DNA from: Akkermansiaceae bacterium
Lineage (GTDB): Bacteria; Verrucomicrobiota; Verrucomicrobiia; Verrucomicrobiales; Akkermansiaceae
NCBI GenBank assembly: GCA_903934285.1
Contig: CAIZNN010000250.1
Span: 1-45,130, forward strand
Direction: 5' to 3'
Length of the DNA stretch: 45,130 nucleotides
The translations under genes were made by a program, and so were the position numbers. Under the pieces are notes generated by a model. It saw nothing but the letters and a program-made list of their open reading frames with translations, did no database searches and was not told the DNA's origin. Every line of letters begins with the position of its first letter. Position 1 is the first letter of the stretch. This document shows positions 3,403-43,332 of the stretch, one piece after another.

Positions 3403-4353
3403 TTATTGGGCGGGCGCCAGCACGGAGGAGGTGTCGGTATGCAGCACGTTGGTGTCGAGGCCGTCGAGCACGATGACCCCGTGGAGGGTGCCGGCGCGCT
3501 GCGGGTCGTGCCATTGCCAGACGATCTTGCCGGCCGTGTCGAACTCTAGCAGCTGCGGCGCCTTGTCGCTATCGGTGGCACCGTGGCCGGTCCAATTGCA
3601 GACCACGAGGTTGCCGGTCTTGAGCACCTGCATGCCGGCGAAAAAATTCAGCAACAGCCCGGGCGGCCCGGGCTGGCCGCCGAGTTTGCGCAGCAGCTTG
3701 CCGGTGCCGTCGAGTTCTTCGATGGCGGCGCCGTAGCCGTCGGCCACCAGCAAATTCTTGTTGGGAAGTTCCAGCACCTGATAGTTGTGGCGCGCGGCGG
3801 GCAGGGACAAGTTGCGCAGGATGGAGCCGTGCAGGTCGGCTTCGATGACCTTGCTGGCATTGCCCTCCATGGCGCCGAAGAGCAGGGTGCCGCGCGGTGA
3901 CAGGCGCAACAGCCGCAAGCTGTTGAGCTGCGGAAACGTGCAGGTGCGGAGCTGCTTGTCAGACGCGTCGAGTTCGTAAAACGTGATGGCGTTGTTCTGG
4001 TTGCAGCCGATGACGGTGCGGCCGTCGGCGAGCCGCCGCACTGAGGTGGCGCCGCCCAGACAATCCCGTTTGACTTCCTTGACCCCGAGGCGGGTTTTGA
4101 GGTCATATTCGCGGTAGCCGCTGTCGGTGTTGGTGAGCAGCTTGCCGCCGCCGATCAATTGCAGGTCGCGGTGTTTTTCCGGGGTCTTGAGCGTCCAGTC
4201 CTGCGACGGGTCGAACTGGTCCACATAGAGCAATTGGCCGCGCGACTCGTCGGCCGCTAGAAAGCGATGTTGGATCGGGTCCGCCGCGCGCAGGGCAGGG
4301 GACAACAGGCAGCAGGCGAGCAGGATGGTGGTGATAACTTGGGGACGTTTCAT
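3403..4353 (-). CDS. Secreted beta-propeller (PQQ-like repeat) protein
   Basis: 316 residues with a signal peptide (MKRPQVITTILLACCLLSPA, cut near LRAAD). Short repeats of about 45 residues end in patterns such as GGKLLTNTDSGYREYD, DGRTVIGCNQNNAITFYELD and NKNLLVADGYGAAIEELDGT. This is typical of PQQ-like or NHL-like propellers in which each blade ends with a hydrophobic strand and a D/G turn. There is no haem motif or visible catalytic signature. It lies 26 bp upstream of the HzsA-related gene and 21 bp downstream of the Ldh2-type oxidoreductase, so it probably belongs to the same transcript. It may bind a substrate or cofactor or scaffold the di-haem protein; that is inference. Confidence 0.75.
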   Translation of the reverse strand: MKRPQVITTILLACCLLSPALRAADPIQHRFLAADESRGQLLYVDQFDPSQDWTLKTPEKHRDLQLIGGGKLLTNTDSGYREYDLKTRLGVKEVKRDCLGGATSVRRLADGRTVIGCNQNNAITFYELDASDKQLRTCTFPQLNSLRLLRLSPRGTLLFGAMEGNASKVIEADLHGSILRNLSLPAARHNYQVLELPNKNLLVADGYGAAIEELDGTGKLLRKLGGQPGPPGLLLNFFAGMQVLKTGNLVVCNWTGHGATDSDKAPQLLEFDTAGKIVWQWHDPQRAGTLHGVIVLDGLDTNVLHTDTSSVLAPAQ

Positions 4354-4374
4354 GGCGGGTGGTTTGCTGGGATG

Positions 4375-5472
4375 TTAGGCGTGCGGTGCGGCCGCGAGGG
4401 TGGCGAGCTCCCAGGGCGGGAGCCCGAGCCCGGCAGCTAGTTCATTGAACTCGGCGATTTCCGCCGCGGTGAACAACAGGCCGCCGGCCGCATCGGAGCG
4501 CTGGCGCGCGGCGGCTTCCAGTTGGCCCGGCAGCATGGCGCCGGCGTTGCCGTGGCCGAGGATGTCGGCGAGGACGGCGGCGAGATTGTCGGCCTGGCTG
4601 CGGCCACAGGCGAAGTTGGCGCCGGACAGGGCGTCGGGATGGATGACTTGGAAATAGAACACCGGGGTGTTTTTCTCGCCGGGGGCCGGGATGGGGCGGC
4701 CGCGCAGGGTGGGCAGCGAGCCGCCGATGAGGCCGCCGAAAATCTCGTTGAGGAGCGACAGCCCGTAGCCCTTGTGGCCGCCGAAGGGCAGCAGCGACGC
4801 CACCAGATTGGGATCGGTGGTGGGGTTGCCCGCGGCATCCACCGCGGCCCCCGGCGGCAGCGATTTGCCTTCGCGCTGGAGCGCCTGGACCCGCCCCATG
4901 GCCACCGTGGAGGTGGCCCAATCAATGACAATGGGAAACCCGTTAGCCTGCGGGGCGGGAATGCCCCACGAGTGCGGGTTGGTGCCGAGGGTGGGAAATT
5001 TGCCGCCGAAGGGCACCACTTCCGCCAGCGCGGAGGTGCAGTTGGTGTAGGCGAAATAGCCGCGCTCAGCGGCGGCCATGACGTAGCCGCCGCCCCACAG
5101 ATAGTGGAAGGCATTGTCCACGGCAATTTGCGCAATGCCGAACTGGTCGGCCAGTTCGATGGCGCGCTCGATCGCCCGATAGGCCACCGACTGGCCGAGT
5201 TTTTTGTTAGCATTCCAGCGTTCCGAGGCGGCGAAGCGGCTGGGCAGCACGGTGATTTGCGCGGCGGGGACGCAGCCGCCGACGCCCGACCCGAACAAGT
5301 CGTCGAGGTGCAGCGCCTTGAGGGCGTGGTGGGTGCGGATGCCGTGGCGGGCCGCTTCGGCGGCGAGTTGGGTGCCTTCGGCCGCTTCCGCGGCGGTGAA
5401 GCCGCGGGCTTGATAGGCCCGGCTCACAAGCAGGTCGTGGGCGGCGCGGGGGATGACGAAGAAGGCGCTCAT
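4375..5472 (-). CDS. Ldh2-type (malate/L-lactate dehydrogenase family) oxidoreductase
   Basis: 365 residues, the usual length for this family of NAD(P)H-dependent 2-oxoacid/ketoacid reductases (malate, L-lactate, ureidoglycolate, 2,3-diketo-gulonate). Family features are the N-terminal helical domain with GIRTHHALKALHL, the cofactor region AVDNAFHYLWGGGYVMAAAE, GTNPHSWGIPAP, and LLPFGGHKGYGLSLLNEI near the C-terminus. There is no signal peptide, so it should be cytoplasmic. Substrate cannot be read from sequence. The start ATG at 5472 sits only 8 nt after seven copies of a 5-bp tandem repeat and has no Shine-Dalgarno site. It lies between a LolA-like gene (107 bp upstream) and a secreted propeller (21 bp downstream). 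Confidence 0.85.
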   Translation of the reverse strand: MSAFFVIPRAAHDLLVSRAYQARGFTAAEAAEGTQLAAEAARHGIRTHHALKALHLDDLFGSGVGGCVPAAQITVLPSRFAASERWNANKKLGQSVAYRAIERAIELADQFGIAQIAVDNAFHYLWGGGYVMAAAERGYFAYTNCTSALAEVVPFGGKFPTLGTNPHSWGIPAPQANGFPIVIDWATSTVAMGRVQALQREGKSLPPGAAVDAAGNPTTDPNLVASLLPFGGHKGYGLSLLNEIFGGLIGGSLPTLRGRPIPAPGEKNTPVFYFQVIHPDALSGANFACGRSQADNLAAVLADILGHGNAGAMLPGQLEAAARQRSDAAGGLLFTAAEIAEFNELAAGLGLPPWELATLAAAPHA

Positions 5473-5480
5473 GGGTGAGG

Positions 5481-5515
5481 GCAGGGCAGGGCAGGGCAGG
5501 GCAGGGCAGGGCAGG
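5481..5515. repeat. Pentanucleotide tandem repeat (GCAGG x7) in the leader of the Ldh2-type gene
   Basis: Seven exact copies of GCAGG on the plus strand, ending 8 nt before the start codon of the minus-strand oxidoreductase. As transcribed, the leader therefore reads (CCTGC)7. A 5-bp unit is not a multiple of 3, so slippage would change leader length and ribosome-site spacing without altering the protein. It could be a contingency locus or simply a neutral microsatellite. Confidence 0.9.
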
Positions 5516-5579
5516 GGCGCAAGAATGAGGGCAGGCGCGCCGCTGTCGAGGCCGGAGCAAGCCCGCGGGCGGATTGGCT

Positions 5580-17743: not shown

Positions 17744-18772
17744 ATGAGCGACCCTGGAGAACGACCGCCGCGCCGCCCGCGTTACAGCGGCAAGCATCCG
17801 CGCGGTTTTGCGCAGAAATACAAGGAGCGGGACCCGGAGCGCTACCCGGACACGGTGGCCAAGGTGCTCGCCTCGGGCAAAACCCCGGCCGGGGCGCACC
17901 TGCCGATTCTGATGGAGGAATGTCTCGCAGCGCTGGACCTGCGGGATGGCGACCTCGGCGTCGATGCCACGCTCGGCTACGGTGGCCACGCGGCACGGAT
18001 ATTGGCGCAGATCAGCCCCGCGGGAAAATTGTTAGGTCTGGATATTGATCCGCTGGAACAACCGAAGACCGTGGCGCGACTGCGCGCGTTGGGCTACCCT
18101 GAGTCCGCGTTTGAAGCGGTGCAGGCGAATTATGCCGGGCTCGCCAAGGTGTTGGCCGGCCGCGGCCTCGCCGGGGTGGATTTTGTGTTAGCCGATCTCG
18201 GCTGTTCATCGATGCAATTGGATGATCCGGCGCGGGGTTTCAGCTTCAAGACCGCCGGACCGCTCGACATGCGGATGAACCCGGCCCGCGGCGTCACCGC
18301 CGCGGAATGGTTGCTGAAAGTTCCGGCGGCCAAGCTGGCAGTGGCACTGCGCGAGCATGCCGATGAGCCGCAGGCAGAACGGTTGGCGGAGGCGCTGGCC
18401 GGGCGCGGCTTTCCTAACACCCTGGGGTTGGCGCGGGCGGTGCGGGAGTGCGTCGGCGGGCGCGACGAGGACTTGGTGGAACTGACGGTGCGGCGGGTGT
18501 TTCAGGCGCTGCGCATTGCGGTGAACGAGGAGTTTTCGGCGTTGGACGCCTTCTTGCGGGTGCTGCCGGATTGTTTGAAAGCAGGTGGGCGGGCGGTGGT
18601 GCTGACCTTTCATTCGGGCGAGGACCGGCGGGTCAAGAAGGCGTTGCAGGCCGCCCATCGCAGCGGAGCGTTTGCCAGCATCAGCGATGGGGTCGTCACC
18701 GCCAGCCCGGAAGAACGCCGGCGCAACCCGCGCAGCAGCGCCGCGAAGTTGCGCTGGGCCATCAAGGCCTAG
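17744..18772 (+). CDS. rsmH: 16S rRNA (cytosine-1402-N4)-methyltransferase RsmH
   Basis: Methylates N4 of C1402 in 16S rRNA using SAM, tuning decoding. 342 residues. SAM-binding motif VDATLGYGGHAARIL at about residue 67, acidic loop GLDIDPLEQP, and the substrate motif ADLGCSSMQLDDPARGFSFK followed by PLDMRM. The C-terminal FHSGEDRRVKKALQ matches the usual SFHSLEDRIVK. The first 50 residues (RYSGKHPRGFAQKYKERDPE, RYPDTVAKVLASGKTPAG) are an extension absent from proteobacterial RsmH. In most bacteria rsmH opens the division cluster (mraZ-rsmH-ftsL); here it stands alone right after the transposase relic, so rearrangement is likely. Confidence 0.92.
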   Translation: MSDPGERPPRRPRYSGKHPRGFAQKYKERDPERYPDTVAKVLASGKTPAGAHLPILMEECLAALDLRDGDLGVDATLGYGGHAARILAQISPAGKLLGLDIDPLEQPKTVARLRALGYPESAFEAVQANYAGLAKVLAGRGLAGVDFVLADLGCSSMQLDDPARGFSFKTAGPLDMRMNPARGVTAAEWLLKVPAAKLAVALREHADEPQAERLAEALAGRGFPNTLGLARAVRECVGGRDEDLVELTVRRVFQALRIAVNEEFSALDAFLRVLPDCLKAGGRAVVLTFHSGEDRRVKKALQAAHRSGAFASISDGVVTASPEERRRNPRSSAAKLRWAIKA

Positions 18773-18862
18773 CGAGGCTTCGCCTCAGACCCAAGACGCA
18801 AGACGCAAGACGAAGAATTCGCCCTAACGACATCACCTTGCCGGTTTCAAGGCCCGTGGTGC

Positions 18863-37905: not shown

Positions 37906-40900
37906 TTGAACCCCGCTCCGCCTGACAAATCACCCACACTGGGAATACGCCTGCGGCGGCGTGGGAGGTATCGTCGGTGGCTCGTCGCCGGCGGGCTGGC
38001 GCTCGGCCTCGGCTTGATGTGGCTCAACGGCCCGGGCCTGCGCTGGCTCGGGCCGCGCTTGGCCCAACATTTCCTCAACGGCGCCGGTGTGGCGGGCAAC
38101 TTCCGCATTGAGGGCAGCCTCAGCCACGGGCTATCCATCACCGCGGTGAAGCTGCGGGGCCCGGGCACCCTCGCCAATCTAACGGTGGAACGGATCACCC
38201 CGCACTACCAATGGTCGCGCCTGGCCAAAGGCCAACTCGACGGCATCTCGGTGGCAGGGGCCCATGCGGAGTTGCGCCTCGGCCCGGACGCCGGGCCGCC
38301 ACCCAAGGACGAGGCAAATCAGCCGCTGGATCTCGATCAACTCGTCCGCACCCTCCGCAATTTGCGCGCGCAACTCGTCCCCATGCAACTCGATTTCCAG
38401 CGCCTCAGTCTCACCGCCACCCGTGCCGGCACACCCGCATTCCAGCTGGAACCCAGCCACCTCGCGCACGCCAGCGGCAGTGACCAGTTCACCTTGCAAA
38501 TCGGCCGGATCACCGATGCCAATGGCCGCCAGTGGCCGGCCCAAACCGCCCACCTGGCGTGGGCTGCCGACCACATCACGTTAGATCGGCTCGCTCCCCT
38601 CCCCGGCCTCGGGGTCAGTGCGGTGACGTTGCATCTGCCCACCACCGGCGGACCAGCCGTGGAGGCGCTCATCCATCTGGACGATGCCGTGCTGCAACTC
38701 CAAACCAGCGCCGGCTTCACCACCGCCCACCTCGCCCTGACCGCCGGTGCTCCGGACCTGCAACAAGCGGCCAAGTGCTTCGGGTTGAACCTGCCGGCCA
38801 CCGCGACGTTGTCCGCGCTCACGCTGGAACTCGCCGACCTCATGCCCAATCCCGCCGCCGCCACCGCACGGGTCGCGCTCACCCTCGACTCCCTCACCTA
38901 TCAGGATTGGCGGATTCCCCATGCACTCGTCTCCGGCGTGCTGGCTAACGACCGCGCCACCGTCACCCTGCGCGCGCAGCCGCTGGGCGCTCCTGTTTCG
39001 TTAGATGGTCTGCAACTCATCACCCACTATGACATCAGTGCCAGGACCTACGCTGGCGAGGTTTCGCTCAACGGGTTTGCCAGCTCACGCATCGACCGCT
39101 GGCTCGCCATCGCCGGCATCAACGCCGGTGGCACCGCCGAATTAACAGGCCATTGGCAGGGCGGCGGTTCCCTATCTACCAACACGCACCATGGCGAGCT
39201 GACCCTCACTCAGGGGGCCTGGCATGCTGCGGGGAAGCCAACCGTCACCGCGGCCGGCATCGTGCGCTACACTTGGCCTAACAATGCGAGCGTGAGCAAC
39301 CTGAAGGCGCAGGCCGGGCCACAGTCCCTCACCCTGGATTGCCTCGCGGCATCATGGCGCCAACCGGAAACCGGGCCGCTCGCCACTGCTGCCGCCTTGT
39401 GGCCCGTCGCGGCGGAGATCCGCAACCTGCAACTCCACGCCGACCAACAATCCATCAGCGTATCGGCCAACCTTGAGGATGGCTTGCTCAAGATTGGCGA
39501 CTTCACCTGGCGTGACGCGGAAACCGTTATCGCTAACGGCTCCGCCAGCTTGCCGGTGCCGCAGGATTTTTCCACCTGGCGCGACACCCTCGCCAACGAC
39601 ACCCGCCCCGCCAGCATGGCCCTGCATTCGCGCCAACTCCCGCTCGCCATGCTCCAACCGTGGCTGGCCGCCGCCGCCCACCTCGATCCCCGCGCCACCG
39701 GCCAAGTCGATATCACCCTCACCGGCAACTACGTCGATCCATCCCTCGCCGCCACCCTCGAGTGCCTCAACCTCAGATCCCCCGCCAATCCAAAACTGCC
39801 GCCCGCCGCACTCAAAGTCACACTCCAATCCGGCGCTGGCCAACTCCAACTCGATGGCTCCCTCACCACGCCGGACTATGCGCCGGCGCTCCTTACCGCC
39901 TCGCTGCCATTCCGCCCGGCAGCTTGGGCGGCGGCGCCGGAATCCCTCAAACAGGAACCCCTCACAGCCAGGGCCGAGCTGCCGCGCCTCGACCTCGCGC
40001 GCTTCACCACCCTGCTGCCGATGGCCAGGCAACTCACCGGCTGGGTCACCGGCAATCTGGTGGTGGCGGGCAAACTCGCCGCGCCCGAGCTCCGCGGCAC
40101 CGTCCACCTAACCAATGGCGGGATCGTCTTCGCCGATGCCAAGCTGCCCCCGGTGCAAGCCGCCGCCGCCGCCATCGACCTAACACTCGACGCCGTCACC
40201 CTCAAGAACCTGCGCGCCACCATCGCCGGCGGCAGTCTCACCGGTGGCGGCGCGCTCAATCTAACTGCTGGCAAGCCCGCGGCGGTGGATTTCCGCCTGC
40301 GCGGCGACCACCTTCCGTTGTTGCGCAATGACATGCTCATCCTGCGCGCCAATCTCGATCTCCGCCTGCACGGGCCGTGGCAGACCGCCGCCCTAACCGG
40401 CACGGTCGGCGCCGTCGACAGTTTGTTTTTCCGCGACATCGAGTTGCTGCCCATTGGCAAGCCCTTCACGGCGCCATCGGCGGCCGCATTGCCCCGGATG
40501 GATGCCGCGCCATCCCCCGGCAGCGCGCTGCCCGCCCCTTTTGGCAACTGGGGTCTCGACCTCGCCGTGCGCACCCAGCAGCCCTTCCTGATTCGCGGCA
40601 ATCTCGCCACCGGTCGCGTCGATGCCAAACTGCGCCTCGGCGGCACTCTCGGCAACCCGCTGCCCGACGGCGTCGCCACTCTCACCGACTTTGTGGCGAC
40701 GCTGCCCTTCAGCACGCTCAAGGTGAAATCCGGGATGTTGCGCTTCACCCCCGCCACTGGCTTTGATCCGCTCTTGGAAATCCGCGGCGTAGCCGAACCG
40801 CGCCCGTATCGCATCGATGTCTATGCCTATGGCAAGCTCTCCGATCCGCAACTCGTGCTGACCTCCAACCCGCCCTTGCCGGAAAGCGAGATCATGACCC

Positions 40901-41199
40901 TGCTGGCCACCGGCACCACCAGCGCCGGCCTCGAAAACACCCAGGCCGCCGCCTCCCGCGCCATCCAGTTGTTCGCCGAGGAAGTCCGCCGCGGCCGGGT
41001 CCGCTATGTGCGGCAACTCCGCCCGTTGTTCGGTCTGCTCGACCGGGTCGATTTCAGTCTCGCCGAGAGCGACCCGTATTCAAGTGATGCCCTGTCCACC
41101 GCCACCCTCAACCTGACCGAGCACTGGTTGGTGTCCGCCGGCATGGGGGTCGACGGCAACACCCGCGTGCTGGGCATCTGGCGCATCTCGTTCCGCTAG
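37906..41199 (+). CDS. tamB: TamB-like translocation/assembly protein
   Basis: 1097 residues. N-terminal basic stretch RRRGRYRRW, then one transmembrane segment LVAGGLALGLGLMWL (about residues 25-42), and a long periplasmic beta-strand repeat region. The C-terminal DUF490/TamB domain (about 780-1097) has VFADAKLPPVQAAAAAIDLT, DYxxTLxxLRATI-like strands, LPESEIMTLLATGTTSAGL (the usual LSxxEIxxLLxxG) and ends LVSAGMGVDGNTRVLGIWRI. TamB spans the periplasm from inner membrane to the TamA barrel and moves lipids or outer-membrane proteins. Start is TTG at 37906, no ribosome site; an ATG at 37901 is out of frame. The next gene, 55 bp on, is TamA-like. Confidence 0.8.
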   Translation: MNPAPPDKSPTLGIRLRRRGRYRRWLVAGGLALGLGLMWLNGPGLRWLGPRLAQHFLNGAGVAGNFRIEGSLSHGLSITAVKLRGPGTLANLTVERITPHYQWSRLAKGQLDGISVAGAHAELRLGPDAGPPPKDEANQPLDLDQLVRTLRNLRAQLVPMQLDFQRLSLTATRAGTPAFQLEPSHLAHASGSDQFTLQIGRITDANGRQWPAQTAHLAWAADHITLDRLAPLPGLGVSAVTLHLPTTGGPAVEALIHLDDAVLQLQTSAGFTTAHLALTAGAPDLQQAAKCFGLNLPATATLSALTLELADLMPNPAAATARVALTLDSLTYQDWRIPHALVSGVLANDRATVTLRAQPLGAPVSLDGLQLITHYDISARTYAGEVSLNGFASSRIDRWLAIAGINAGGTAELTGHWQGGGSLSTNTHHGELTLTQGAWHAAGKPTVTAAGIVRYTWPNNASVSNLKAQAGPQSLTLDCLAASWRQPETGPLATAAALWPVAAEIRNLQLHADQQSISVSANLEDGLLKIGDFTWRDAETVIANGSASLPVPQDFSTWRDTLANDTRPASMALHSRQLPLAMLQPWLAAAAHLDPRATGQVDITLTGNYVDPSLAATLECLNLRSPANPKLPPAALKVTLQSGAGQLQLDGSLTTPDYAPALLTASLPFRPAAWAAAPESLKQEPLTARAELPRLDLARFTTLLPMARQLTGWVTGNLVVAGKLAAPELRGTVHLTNGGIVFADAKLPPVQAAAAAIDLTLDAVTLKNLRATIAGGSLTGGGALNLTAGKPAAVDFRLRGDHLPLLRNDMLILRANLDLRLHGPWQTAALTGTVGAVDSLFFRDIELLPIGKPFTAPSAAALPRMDAAPSPGSALPAPFGNWGLDLAVRTQQPFLIRGNLATGRVDAKLRLGGTLGNPLPDGVATLTDFVATLPFSTLKVKSGMLRFTPATGFDPLLEIRGVAEPRPYRIDVYAYGKLSDPQLVLTSNPPLPESEIMTLLATGTTSAGLENTQAAASRAIQLFAEEVRRGRVRYVRQLRPLFGLLDRVDFSLAESDPYSSDALSTATLNLTEHWLVSAGMGVDGNTRVLGIWRISFR

Positions 41200-41218
41200 A
41201 TAAAGACACAAGACGATG

Positions 41219-41324
41219 AGACAGAAGACAGAAGACAAGACAAGGAGGCGCCGGTGAGGGCGCTCTTCTGTCGTCTGTTGGCTGTTGCAGAGTGCAACGC
41301 TCTCTTGTCTTCTGTCTTCTGTCT
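41219..41324 (+). promoter_or_regulatory. Long inverted repeat enclosing the tamA ribosome site and start codon
   Basis: The left arm AGACAGAAGACAGAAGACAA plus one G (41219-41239) is the exact reverse complement of 41304-41324, 21 bp without mismatch. The 64-nt loop between them holds a strong AAGGAGG site (41242-41248) and the GTG start (41254). The arms belong to an AAGACAGAAGAC/TCTTGTGTCTTG-type repeat that continues to about 41390 and encodes part of the signal peptide. In RNA the arms could pair and hide or display the ribosome site. Confidence 0.75.
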
Positions 41325-43332
41325 TGGAGCGCAGCGGTCTTGTGTCTTGTGTCTCGTGTCTTGCGTCTGCTGTCTTGCAGCCGCCGCCGCGGCCGATACC
41401 CGCGTCCGCGTCGAGGGACTGCACGGCAAAACCGAGGCGCAGGTGCTGGATTTGATGGGCGGGCGCCTCTATCAAGTCCGCGCCAATCCCGCCTCGCCGT
41501 CGCGGGCCGACGACGCCGCGTTTCTCGTGCGCCAAGTGTTGCAGAACGACGGCTACGCCGACGTCCATGTCGACTGGAAAATCGCCGGACCTAACGAGAT
41601 TGTGCTAACCGTCGGGCCGGCCGCGCGGGTGACCTTGGGCAAGGTGAGCGTGCTGGGGGTGGACGGGCGGGAGGCCAACCGGCTGTCGCGCTTGTTTCGC
41701 CGCCCGGCAGACAAGAACCGGGCGGCGGGCGACGCGCCGCCATTCCGCGAAGACGATGTGGCCACCGGCCTGAGCTATCTCAAACAAGACCTGCAGGCCC
41801 AGGGCTATTGGGCGGCCGCTGCGGCCATCGAGAGTCGCCGCCCCGGCGGTCGTGGCGGCGCGGTGGATCTGGTCATCCGCGTCACTCGCGGGCCGCTCCA
41901 TCACCTGGCGCGCGCCAAGGTGAGCAGCAGCAATGGGCGAATCGTCGCGCTGGTGGCCGCCACGGCGGACCCCTTCAGCGGCCGCCCTGCCACCACCGCC
42001 AATCTCAACGCGATGCGCAGCGCGGTGGAGGAGGCGTTTCTGAGCCGAGGCTATGCGGAGGCGAAACTGACCATGAGCAGTTCGTTGGCCGCGGCGGCGT
42101 TCATCCCGGTGTTCACTGTCGAAGCCGGCTCCCGCGTGCGCCTCCGCCAACTCACCGCCGATGGCTTGCAACGCACCAATCCCCAGCGCATCCAACGGCG
42201 CATGCATGCCCTCGAAAACCATTGGTACAACACGGCCGCCATGCACAAACGCTTGCGCGAACTCCTCGCCACCGGCGCCTTCTCGTCCGCCCGCGTCGAG
42301 ACCCGCCCCGTCGCCGACAACCTCATCGATGCCTCCCTCCACTTTGAGGAGGCCAAGGCCCGCGAAATCACCCTCGCCGCCGGCGCCGGTTCCTATCAGG
42401 GGCCGATTGCGCGCGTCACTTATGCCGACCGCAACCTCCGCGGCGAGTTGTTAGGTTTTAGCGCCGGCTTCGAGCTGAGCGCCCGCGGGGTGTTAGGTGA
42501 AACCCGCATCACCGACCCCTGGCTGCTCGGGTCGGACTACGCGGGCAGCGCGCGCATTTACGCGCTGCTGTCCGCCCCCGAGGGCTATGATTCGTTTGAC
42601 AGCGGCCTCGATGGCAGCATCAGCCGCAAGTTTGGCGACCATTACAAAATCGAGCTGCTCGCCGGCTGGTCGATGGTCAACAACAACGAAAGCGGACTCC
42701 CCCGCGCCGCCCTGGGCGAAACCGTCTATGCCCACCCGCGCCTGCGCCTGACCCAGACCCTCGATTACCGCGACAACCCGGTGCTGGCAAAAGCCGGCTG
42801 GCACCTCGAACTGCCGCTGCAACTCGGCGCGGCAGTCGGCGACCAGACCGCGTCCTATTGCAAAGCCGGCCTCAGCGGCGGTTGGTATCATCAGCTCACC
42901 GCCAACTATCAAGTCGCCATCGGCGGCCAGTGCGGCCTGCTCATTCCCACCGGCGACGGCACTGAGTTTCCCATCGACCTGCGCTATTTCAATGGCGGCG
43001 CGCGCAGCGTGCGCAGCTTCCCCGAGCGCGAACTCGGCCCCACCGCCGGCAGCGGCCACTATGCCACCGGCGGCGAGGCGGCGTGGGCCGCCAACCTCGA
43101 ACTCATCCGCGCCCTCGGCGGCCCGGTCAAACTCGTCGGCTTCCTCGATGCCGGCACCCTCAGCCAATCCTATCAGGACCTCGGCAGCGCCGATATCGAA
43201 CTCGCCGCCGGCCTCGGCCTGCGCCTCGACCTGCCCATCGGCCCGGTGCGCCTCGAATACGGGTTCAATCTAACACAGGACTCCGGCGAGCCCGCCGGCA
43301 CCTTCCATTTCGCCATTGGCGCCGCGTTCTAA
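41254..43332 (+). CDS. tamA: TamA/BamA-like Omp85 outer-membrane protein
   Basis: 692 residues from GTG 41254, supported by AAGGAGG 5 nt upstream, the only strong Shine-Dalgarno site I found. Unusual Cys-rich signal sequence (LLSSVFCLGAQRSCVLCLVS, then CVCCLAAAAAAD) that is encoded by repeat DNA. POTRA-like domains at about 48-330 (VRVEGLHGKTEAQVLDLMGG; VTLGKVSVLGVDG; FSGRPATTANLNAMRSAVEE). The beta-barrel follows, with the Omp85 lid motif FNGGARSVRSFPERELGP, where VRSF replaces VRGF. Ends with the expected C-terminal strand and Phe (AIGAAF). Probable partner of TamB encoded 55 bp upstream; a second BamA-like role is the alternative. Confidence 0.85.
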   Translation: MRALFCRLLAVAECNALLSSVFCLGAQRSCVLCLVSCVCCLAAAAAADTRVRVEGLHGKTEAQVLDLMGGRLYQVRANPASPSRADDAAFLVRQVLQNDGYADVHVDWKIAGPNEIVLTVGPAARVTLGKVSVLGVDGREANRLSRLFRRPADKNRAAGDAPPFREDDVATGLSYLKQDLQAQGYWAAAAAIESRRPGGRGGAVDLVIRVTRGPLHHLARAKVSSSNGRIVALVAATADPFSGRPATTANLNAMRSAVEEAFLSRGYAEAKLTMSSSLAAAAFIPVFTVEAGSRVRLRQLTADGLQRTNPQRIQRRMHALENHWYNTAAMHKRLRELLATGAFSSARVETRPVADNLIDASLHFEEAKAREITLAAGAGSYQGPIARVTYADRNLRGELLGFSAGFELSARGVLGETRITDPWLLGSDYAGSARIYALLSAPEGYDSFDSGLDGSISRKFGDHYKIELLAGWSMVNNNESGLPRAALGETVYAHPRLRLTQTLDYRDNPVLAKAGWHLELPLQLGAAVGDQTASYCKAGLSGGWYHQLTANYQVAIGGQCGLLIPTGDGTEFPIDLRYFNGGARSVRSFPERELGPTAGSGHYATGGEAAWAANLELIRALGGPVKLVGFLDAGTLSQSYQDLGSADIELAAGLGLRLDLPIGPVRLEYGFNLTQDSGEPAGTFHFAIGAAF

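Follow-up and report, generated by a model that had tools for sequence, protein, structure and literature searches.

A dispersed palindromic repeat has very probably supplied the translation start and putative signal peptide of tamA in a freshwater bacterium

The junction of the tamB and tamA genes in a freshwater bacterium holds one copy of a scattered palindromic repeat. The window, by which we mean the entire 45,130-nucleotide stretch of DNA analysed, carries the two genes on its forward strand. The upstream gene, tamB (37906-41199), encodes a TamB domain protein (Pfam TamB PF04357, E-value 7.2e-28) and ends in a TAG stop codon at 41197-41199. The downstream open reading frame (41254-43332) encodes 692 amino acids, and in its product both an Omp85 barrel and a POTRA domain are matched by Pfam (E-values 9.6e-38 and 4.1e-07, respectively). 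The mature Omp85/BamA-type part, whose beginning is conserved in relatives, would correspond to 41395-43332. We use the name tamA because of the Omp85 match and the adjacency to tamB; the product falls short of the NCBIfam equivalog cut-offs for both TamA (92.5 bits compared to 625) and BamA (161.5 compared to 297).

The repeat element as a whole occupies positions 41203-41377 and, like all the parts described below, is given on the forward strand; its first AAGAC, at 41203, lies 3 nt past the tamB stop codon. An outer left arm (41203-41214) forms a perfect 12-bp pairing with 41337-41348. The main left, or purine, arm (41219-41240), made of AAGACAG heptamers, pairs with the main right, or pyrimidine, arm (41303-41324), this latter coding for LSSVFC and flanking residues. 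A preliminary description of this DNA had given these main arms as 21 bp long; they are confirmed with a length of 22 bp, 100% complementary and 62 nt apart. Downstream of the right arm come the spacer GGAGCGCAGCG (41326-41336), typical of the family as compared over 62 copies in the same genome, and an array of GTCTTGT-type heptamers (41337-41377). The array codes for SCVLCLVSCVCC, the hydrophobic core adjoining the mature protein, and so is indeed the source of the odd Cys-rich stretch already attributed to it. Between the main arms lie, again as first described, the Shine-Dalgarno-like motif AAGGAGG (41242-41248) and, 5 nt further on, GTG 41254-41256, the likely start codon of tamA. The 47 codons from this GTG (41254-41394) are coded by the loop of the element, its right arm and the heptamer array and, from comparison with relatives, form the putative signal-peptide region.

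Judged by hydropathy only, the putative signal peptide comprises an MR... start, a core VLCLVSCVCCL of hydropathy 3.0 and AAAAAA before an Asp, its length being unusual; cleavage would take place after the AAAAAA. The 47-residue N-terminus contains an internal QR and two hydrophobic stretches, and is longer than most native ones. Over the 32 codons from the start, the window and the corresponding gene of a related genome, G087, align without gaps, with 79 of 96 nucleotides identical and the ATG of G087 opposite the GTG. Past the start, 11 of 14 codon changes are nonsynonymous, so that no purifying selection is visible on the residues; since ATG and GTG nevertheless align, the frame and the start appear to have been kept while the residues vary freely.

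The predicted RNA fold of 41190-41400 has an energy of -102.8 kcal/mol (z = -5.7; none of 200 dinucleotide shuffles was as stable). Within it, an inner hairpin at 41244-41268, in which GGAGGCGCC (41244-41252) pairs with GGCGC-U-CUUC (41259-41268), places the start codon in a 6-nt loop and leaves AAGGAGG mostly paired. The ATG of G087 similarly lies in the loop of a comparable hairpin, and that of a further relative, G019, in a 16-nt loop, although this latter start is our choice among several in-frame start codons and its loop placement was seen in the local fold only. That each of the three genomes has its start codon in such a loop can be read as a possible inheritance from the element. The ribosome site had been called strong: AAGGAGG does precede the GTG by 5 nt, but caution is called for since Shine-Dalgarno cores are rarer than chance here, lying ahead of 2 of 91 ATG starts in the sampled loci of the same genome (genes called by codon-usage scorer) compared to 12% in random stretches. 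A search for 16S rRNA succeeded in five of nine genomes, the genome of the window not being one of the five; the seven loci checked, from four genomes of the genus, carry GGATCACCTCC, keeping CACCTCC.

The element belongs to a family dispersed through the genome. In its own genome of 4.8 Mb, a 206-nt region of the window gives 108 BLAST matches, distributed over at least about 40 places, a lower bound with 40 of 126 first-look candidates scored, and the sequence flanking the copies differs between places: many similar copies occupy unrelated sites. The string GTCTTSNGTCTTS yields 415 matches, compared to 120 for a reversed control. Copies share an anatomy in which a purine arm of AAGACAG or AAGACAC heptamers, often with CGCTGCGCTCC, is followed by a variable loop and a pyrimidine arm of GTCTTCT or GTCTTGT, often with the spacer seen at tamA; the heptamer arrays differ in copy number from copy to copy. 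The copies, which have inverted-repeat arms, are on average 141.5 bp long (30 copies, those below 80 bp excluded), within the MITE-like range of about 100-200 bp. With its 7-nt direct repeats in intergenic DNA the family resembles short tandem heptamers, but it is not a simple direct array without a palindrome, the arms being inverted, with a loop and a spacer.

The placement of the copies is strikingly regular. In the loci from the same genome and from named MAGs (L009-L046, L081-L089, L091), the neighbouring gene pairs number 37 tandem, 1 divergent and 0 convergent, not counting 8 elements that lie at the edge of a contig and 3 that are distant, and with genes called by our own codon-usage scorer, not by a trained gene finder. 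Within the genome of the window, 29 of 29 pairs flanking palindromes are tandem, compared to 39 of 63 repeat-free pairs (Fisher p = 2e-5) or, with only gaps of at least 60 nt considered, to 16 of 31 (p = 7e-6), the control pairs having been drawn from the DNA around the repeats and from the window, not from the whole genome. The rule is looser for pairs with other GTCTT/AAGAC repeats, of which 15 are tandem, 2 divergent and 2 convergent. The copy begins between -3 and +16 nt from the upstream stop codon in 22 of the 23 copies with a scored stop, a range of -25 to +60 nt being considered and the remaining 6 of the 29 elements, which have no scored stop there, being dropped; copies shorter than 80 bp or with fewer than four unit matches were left out both here and from the counts of latent signals below.

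The exact core occurs also in named freshwater Verrucomicrobia and Akkermansiaceae MAGs. A strict version of the core was found nowhere outside its own genome in 387 genomes sampled over the phylum, a sample with few genomes of the genus and a search that misses diverged copies. No Rfam family matched at its gathering score, two eukaryotic microRNA families scoring far below theirs. RAYT enzymes were considered as possible movers of the repeat, but among the genomes compared the number of Y1_Tnp matches does not follow that of the repeats: such matches are present in 41 of 41 genomes of the genus, repeat-bearing or not, with 42 in the genome of the window, 25 in G021, which has 0 repeat matches, and 5 in G059, which has 76. 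In a Prevotellaceae MAG of low GC content (36-37%), the heptamers and the spacer of the family lie between genes with the purine arm right after a TAG (L090, around 2657-2691; L092, around 4335-4369), and either cross-phylum transfer or convergence could account for these copies.

Two details of the copies deserve mention. An AT-rich micro-repeat resembling TAACTGATAACTAAC and a C-tract often fill the remaining gap up to the next ATG; at least four C residues occur in the last 5 nt before 22 of 31 ATG genes behind repeats, compared to 14 of 60 others. DNA mini-hairpins with GNA loops, of the GCGNAGC kind, are stable. In the spacer GSAGCGNAGCG (L009-L046, L093-L124) the N takes all four bases and is changed in 10 of 62 copies of the genome, compared to 2 changes in 248 stem bases of GCGNAGC (Fisher p = 3e-6), as a GNA mini-hairpin predicts; the A of GCGNAGC is also changed, in 6 of 62 copies.

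TamA was sought in relatives both with a loose cut-off, permissive enough to admit BamA-like paralogues and giving matches in 58 of 59 relatives, and at an E-value of 1e-100, giving matches in 51 of 73 genomes of the genus. The 30 loci listed for each search, with overlaps counted once, provided 41 TamA loci for examination, and 37 could be read for both the end of tamB and the start of tamA (L064, whose tamB end was not found, and L073, L075 and L076, in which the tamA start is missing, were dropped). In 30 of these 37 tamA has its first start codon right at the end of tamB, at -4, -1 or 0 relative to the stop codon and often as TGATGA, and the native TamA signal peptides are typically around 18-22 residues long, for example MNLLRTILILMLTALSAVA, with that of L067 about twice as long. 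A tamA start at +15 of the tamB stop is seen in L134. The separation of the tamB stop and the conserved mature part is 35-116 nt in 31 loci and 142-244 nt in the other six, namely the window, G087, G019, G077, G018 and G026.

These six genomes with long junctions form one clade (support 100/99 in a midpoint-rooted tree of 38), within which the window, G087 and G019 form a subclade, again at 100/99, G077 joining these three at only 86/74. Of the six, four (the window, G087, G019 and G026) have a signal-peptide region encoded by GTCTT repeats. In G077 the repeats are present and are followed by a native-type peptide, MPRLLATILLATVLCAGA; in G018 the micro-repeats are of another, AT-rich kind and the signal peptide is unrelated. 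The palindrome at the tamA junction is made by a different repeat pair in G026 and is absent in G077 and G018. Peak hydropathy over 11 residues reaches 3.0 in the window but only 2.2-2.25 in G087, G019 and G026, less than the 2.5-2.7 seen in five native TamA peptides. No exact empty site at the nucleotide level was found among the relatives compared. Micro-repeats upstream of tamA, AGTTATCAGTTATCAG and TTATTGGTTATTAGG, were noted at the junctions of L126 (G077) and L049 (G018).

Since the window, G087 and G019 group at 100/99, a single recruitment common to the three is likely. A second tamA recruitment, in G026, is also likely, on grounds of parsimony; two recruitments are not proven because the placement of G077 reaches only 86/74. 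The proposal of the preliminary description that a repeat element inserted at the start of the gene and was taken over, as a putative signal peptide, gains support from these junctions, in that 30 of 37 lack the element and a repeat-coded start is common to the window and the two closest relatives grouping with it.

The suitability of the repeat for a signal-peptide role lies in its frame-independent coding. The 7-nt units are free of stop codons in any frame: (GTCTTCT)n reads as SSVFCLL and (GTCTTGT)n as SCVLCLV in all three frames, with mean hydropathies of 2.2 and 2.9, respectively, other pyrimidine units being less hydrophobic (GTCTTGC 1.5, GTCTTGG 1.3, GTCTTCC 0.4). The opposite, purine strand codes for KTEDRRQ and KTQDTRH, which are strongly hydrophilic and charged. 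Since each strand of the palindrome begins with the purine arm, whichever frame is open, on one strand or the other, leads from a charged to a hydrophobic segment, which is the order found in a signal peptide; with heptamer units that lack stops and code in this way independently of frame, recruitment should be easy. This was assessed quantitatively by counting latent signal peptides, defined by a start codon, a net charge of at least +1, a hydropathy of at least 2.0 over 11 residues and a frame open to the end. There are 22 in 180 strand-frames, distributed over 18 of 30 copies, compared to 1.6 ± 1.2 in 50 shuffles (maximum 4) and 2.0 ± 1.2 in 50 sets of random pieces of the window (maximum 6).

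A search for other genes that start in the repeat, as had been suggested at the outset, yielded one more. Inspection by eye of the open frames from 107 pyrimidine clusters in loci of the same genome, a count that excludes the window, picked out L011, judged to need the repeat as its N-terminus; it encodes a presumably secreted squalene/hopene-cyclase-like protein (Pfam PF13243, E-value 5.7e-08), unrelated to TamA, with ...KSCVLCLACGLAGAA. The cyclase-like gene is present in 56 of 73 genomes of the genus. Among its 14 best loci, GTCTTG-type repeats code for the hydrophobic core in seven (G000, G029, G087, G019, G059, G091 and G074) and a repeat-coded signal peptide is lacking in the other seven (G077, G088, G076, G036, G085, G062 and G009). 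CTTGYGTCTTGYGTCTTG is carried by 35 genomes; when 30 of these were sampled at one locus per genome, inspection by eye gave a single clear case, L186, which is the cyclase-like gene in G091 and the same gene as L143; a few other long open frames were left as unclear or antisense. Recruitment thus appears to be rare per copy yet recurrent.

Translation of tamA could alternatively begin at an internal TTG or GTG in the right arm or the array, in which case the hairpin with GTG 41254 would be an untranslated leader while the peptide would still be repeat-coded. Such a start would explain why the 47-residue N-terminus is long and has two hydrophobic stretches, and why our codon scorer put the start of coding at 41347; it would also accord with the pairing of most of AAGGAGG in the fold and the rarity of Shine-Dalgarno cores before genes here. 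We nevertheless consider it unlikely, since the ATG of G087 lies opposite GTG 41254 with 32 codons alignable ungapped, and AAGGAGG is only 5 nt ahead of that GTG. An origin of the whole arrangement in an assembly error or a decayed gene has a negligible probability: the genome is a draft of 282 contigs, but G087 and G019 show the corresponding arrangement in separate assemblies, and the frame runs unbroken through 692 codons, with both Omp85 and POTRA matched in its product.

The preliminary description had further suggested that the palindrome might serve as an RNA switch. The very stable fold (z of -5.7), the start codon in a small loop beside a Shine-Dalgarno-like stem and the similar hairpin in G087 are all compatible with regulation of tamA in this way. 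However, comparable palindromes are found between the genes of many unrelated pairs. The longest unbroken helix around the start codon, of 24 pairs in the window, shrinks to 8 pairs in G087 and to 12 in G019; at tamA, G026 employs a different repeat pair and G077 and G018 lack the palindrome of the window; and Rfam offers no match at gathering score. A long hairpin comes with membership of the family, and tamA shows no particular sign of being regulated by it, so that the switch reading is not supported and its truth very improbable; a regulatory hairpin private to tamA is rejected in view of the recurrence of the palindrome at many other gene junctions. The variation in copy number of the heptamer arrays might suggest that there was no insertion and that slippage of short repeats did no more than lengthen a native signal peptide. 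The junction, though, has the full anatomy of the family (a purine arm right after the stop, a loop, a pyrimidine arm and the spacer GGAGCGCAGCG), and slippage would not alone create a 22-bp inverted repeat straddling the start, making growth of this kind highly improbable.

By comparison of sequences the signal-peptide reading is thus well supported, and we hold it very likely that a copy of the repeat took over the junction and became both start and signal peptide of tamA. It draws on the existence of the family, the differences between junctions, the start common to the window and G087, and the coding property with its excess over controls, each demonstrated at that level. In the ancestor, tamA most likely started on the tamB stop codon and had a short native signal peptide. 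A copy of the palindromic repeat would then have come to occupy the junction, parting the genes, and in the lineage of the window the native start and signal peptide would have been lost. Translation would now proceed from the GTG between the arms, with the right arm and the heptamer array coding for the signal peptide. We infer the use and cleavage of this peptide, initiation at GTG 41254, the order of events and the mode of spread of the family. Many copies appear to hold an open path leading from charged to hydrophobic residues, and in some of them the loop provides a start codon. With somewhat less than even confidence, we suggest that the family might constitute a standing supply of signal peptides, repeatedly adopted by secreted genes whose start a copy has disrupted: by tamA at least twice (in G026 and in the lineage from which the window, G087 and G019 descend) and additionally by the gene for the cyclase-like protein.

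A signal peptide given by a repeat is not new in kind, since there are precedents in enterobacteria. According to the extracts available of the papers describing them, RU-2/YPAL and RU-1f (YE2643) repeats form part of the predicted signal peptides of putative exported proteins, and in the case of RU-2 similar proteins of other genera have unrelated predicted signal sequences (PMC2759123, PMC2229807). As far as these extracts go, YPAL/RU-2 and the present case are alike in having a repeat in a predicted signal peptide and a replacement seen by comparison; they differ in that two genes are concerned here, one of them coding for an Omp85-family protein, in several genomes belonging to one genus and with intermediate states, and in that the heptamer arms provide a frame-independent coding reason. 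The Rickettsia palindromic elements, palindromes of around 105-146 bp lying in frame within conserved protein genes in the portion of text available (PMC2229807), share with the element described here the presence of a palindromic repeat in frame in a protein gene. Those elements, so described, sit within reading frames, whereas that of the window supplies a start and an export signal and has arms that are heptamer arrays.

ERIC, NEMIS and other short palindromic repeats are, in the same partial account, mostly intergenic and form long RNA stem-loops, NEMIS hairpins being targets of RNase III (PMC2229807). The present family resembles them, to that extent, in size, mostly intergenic placement and long RNA stem-loop, and differs from them in arms made of short tandem repeats and in the location of the sampled copies between tandem genes, flush with the stop codon. 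The TAACTGA heptamers of marine Beggiatoaceae, found also in Bacteroidetes and Cyanobacteria, are intergenic, with many sets just upstream of start codons and few ribosome-binding sites, as presented in the extract of their description (PMC4679880). On this showing the 7-nt period and the intergenic placement are common to both, but TAACTGA repeats form direct arrays with stops in all three forward frames whereas the family of the window is inverted and stop-free. In the open-licence papers searched, we saw neither this heptamer palindrome nor a TamA signal peptide coded by a repeat reported, and the heptamer strings matched one unrelated plant paper. Nor did we see in that literature a stop-flush placement between tandem genes, recurrent recruitment in one genus with several junction states, or a reason independent of frame and strand.

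The origin of new signal peptides is seldom seen directly, and the present case suggests a route by which repeat DNA may furnish them. Within one genus there occur what are likely the earlier state (30 relatives), other states (G077 and G018) and taken-over states (the window, G087, G019 and G026); because these coexist in a single genus and the coding property is simple, the idea that export signals arise from repeat DNA can be tested directly. The finding also points to a family of hairpins that lie between genes, flush with the stop codons of genes on the same strand.

Other arrays are present in the window. A repeat related to that at tamA had been reported past the gene ending at 18772; an AGACGCA array does lie there, at 18787-18816, but it is of a related yet different class. 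This second class, GAGGCTTCGCCTCAGACCCAAGACGC..., extends over 18770-18816, directly after the stop codon at 18772, and similar copies are seen in L018 and L028. Finally, a perfect array of AGGGC pentamers, with 7.8 copies, is located at 5478-5516, just upstream of a minus-strand gene at 4375-5472.
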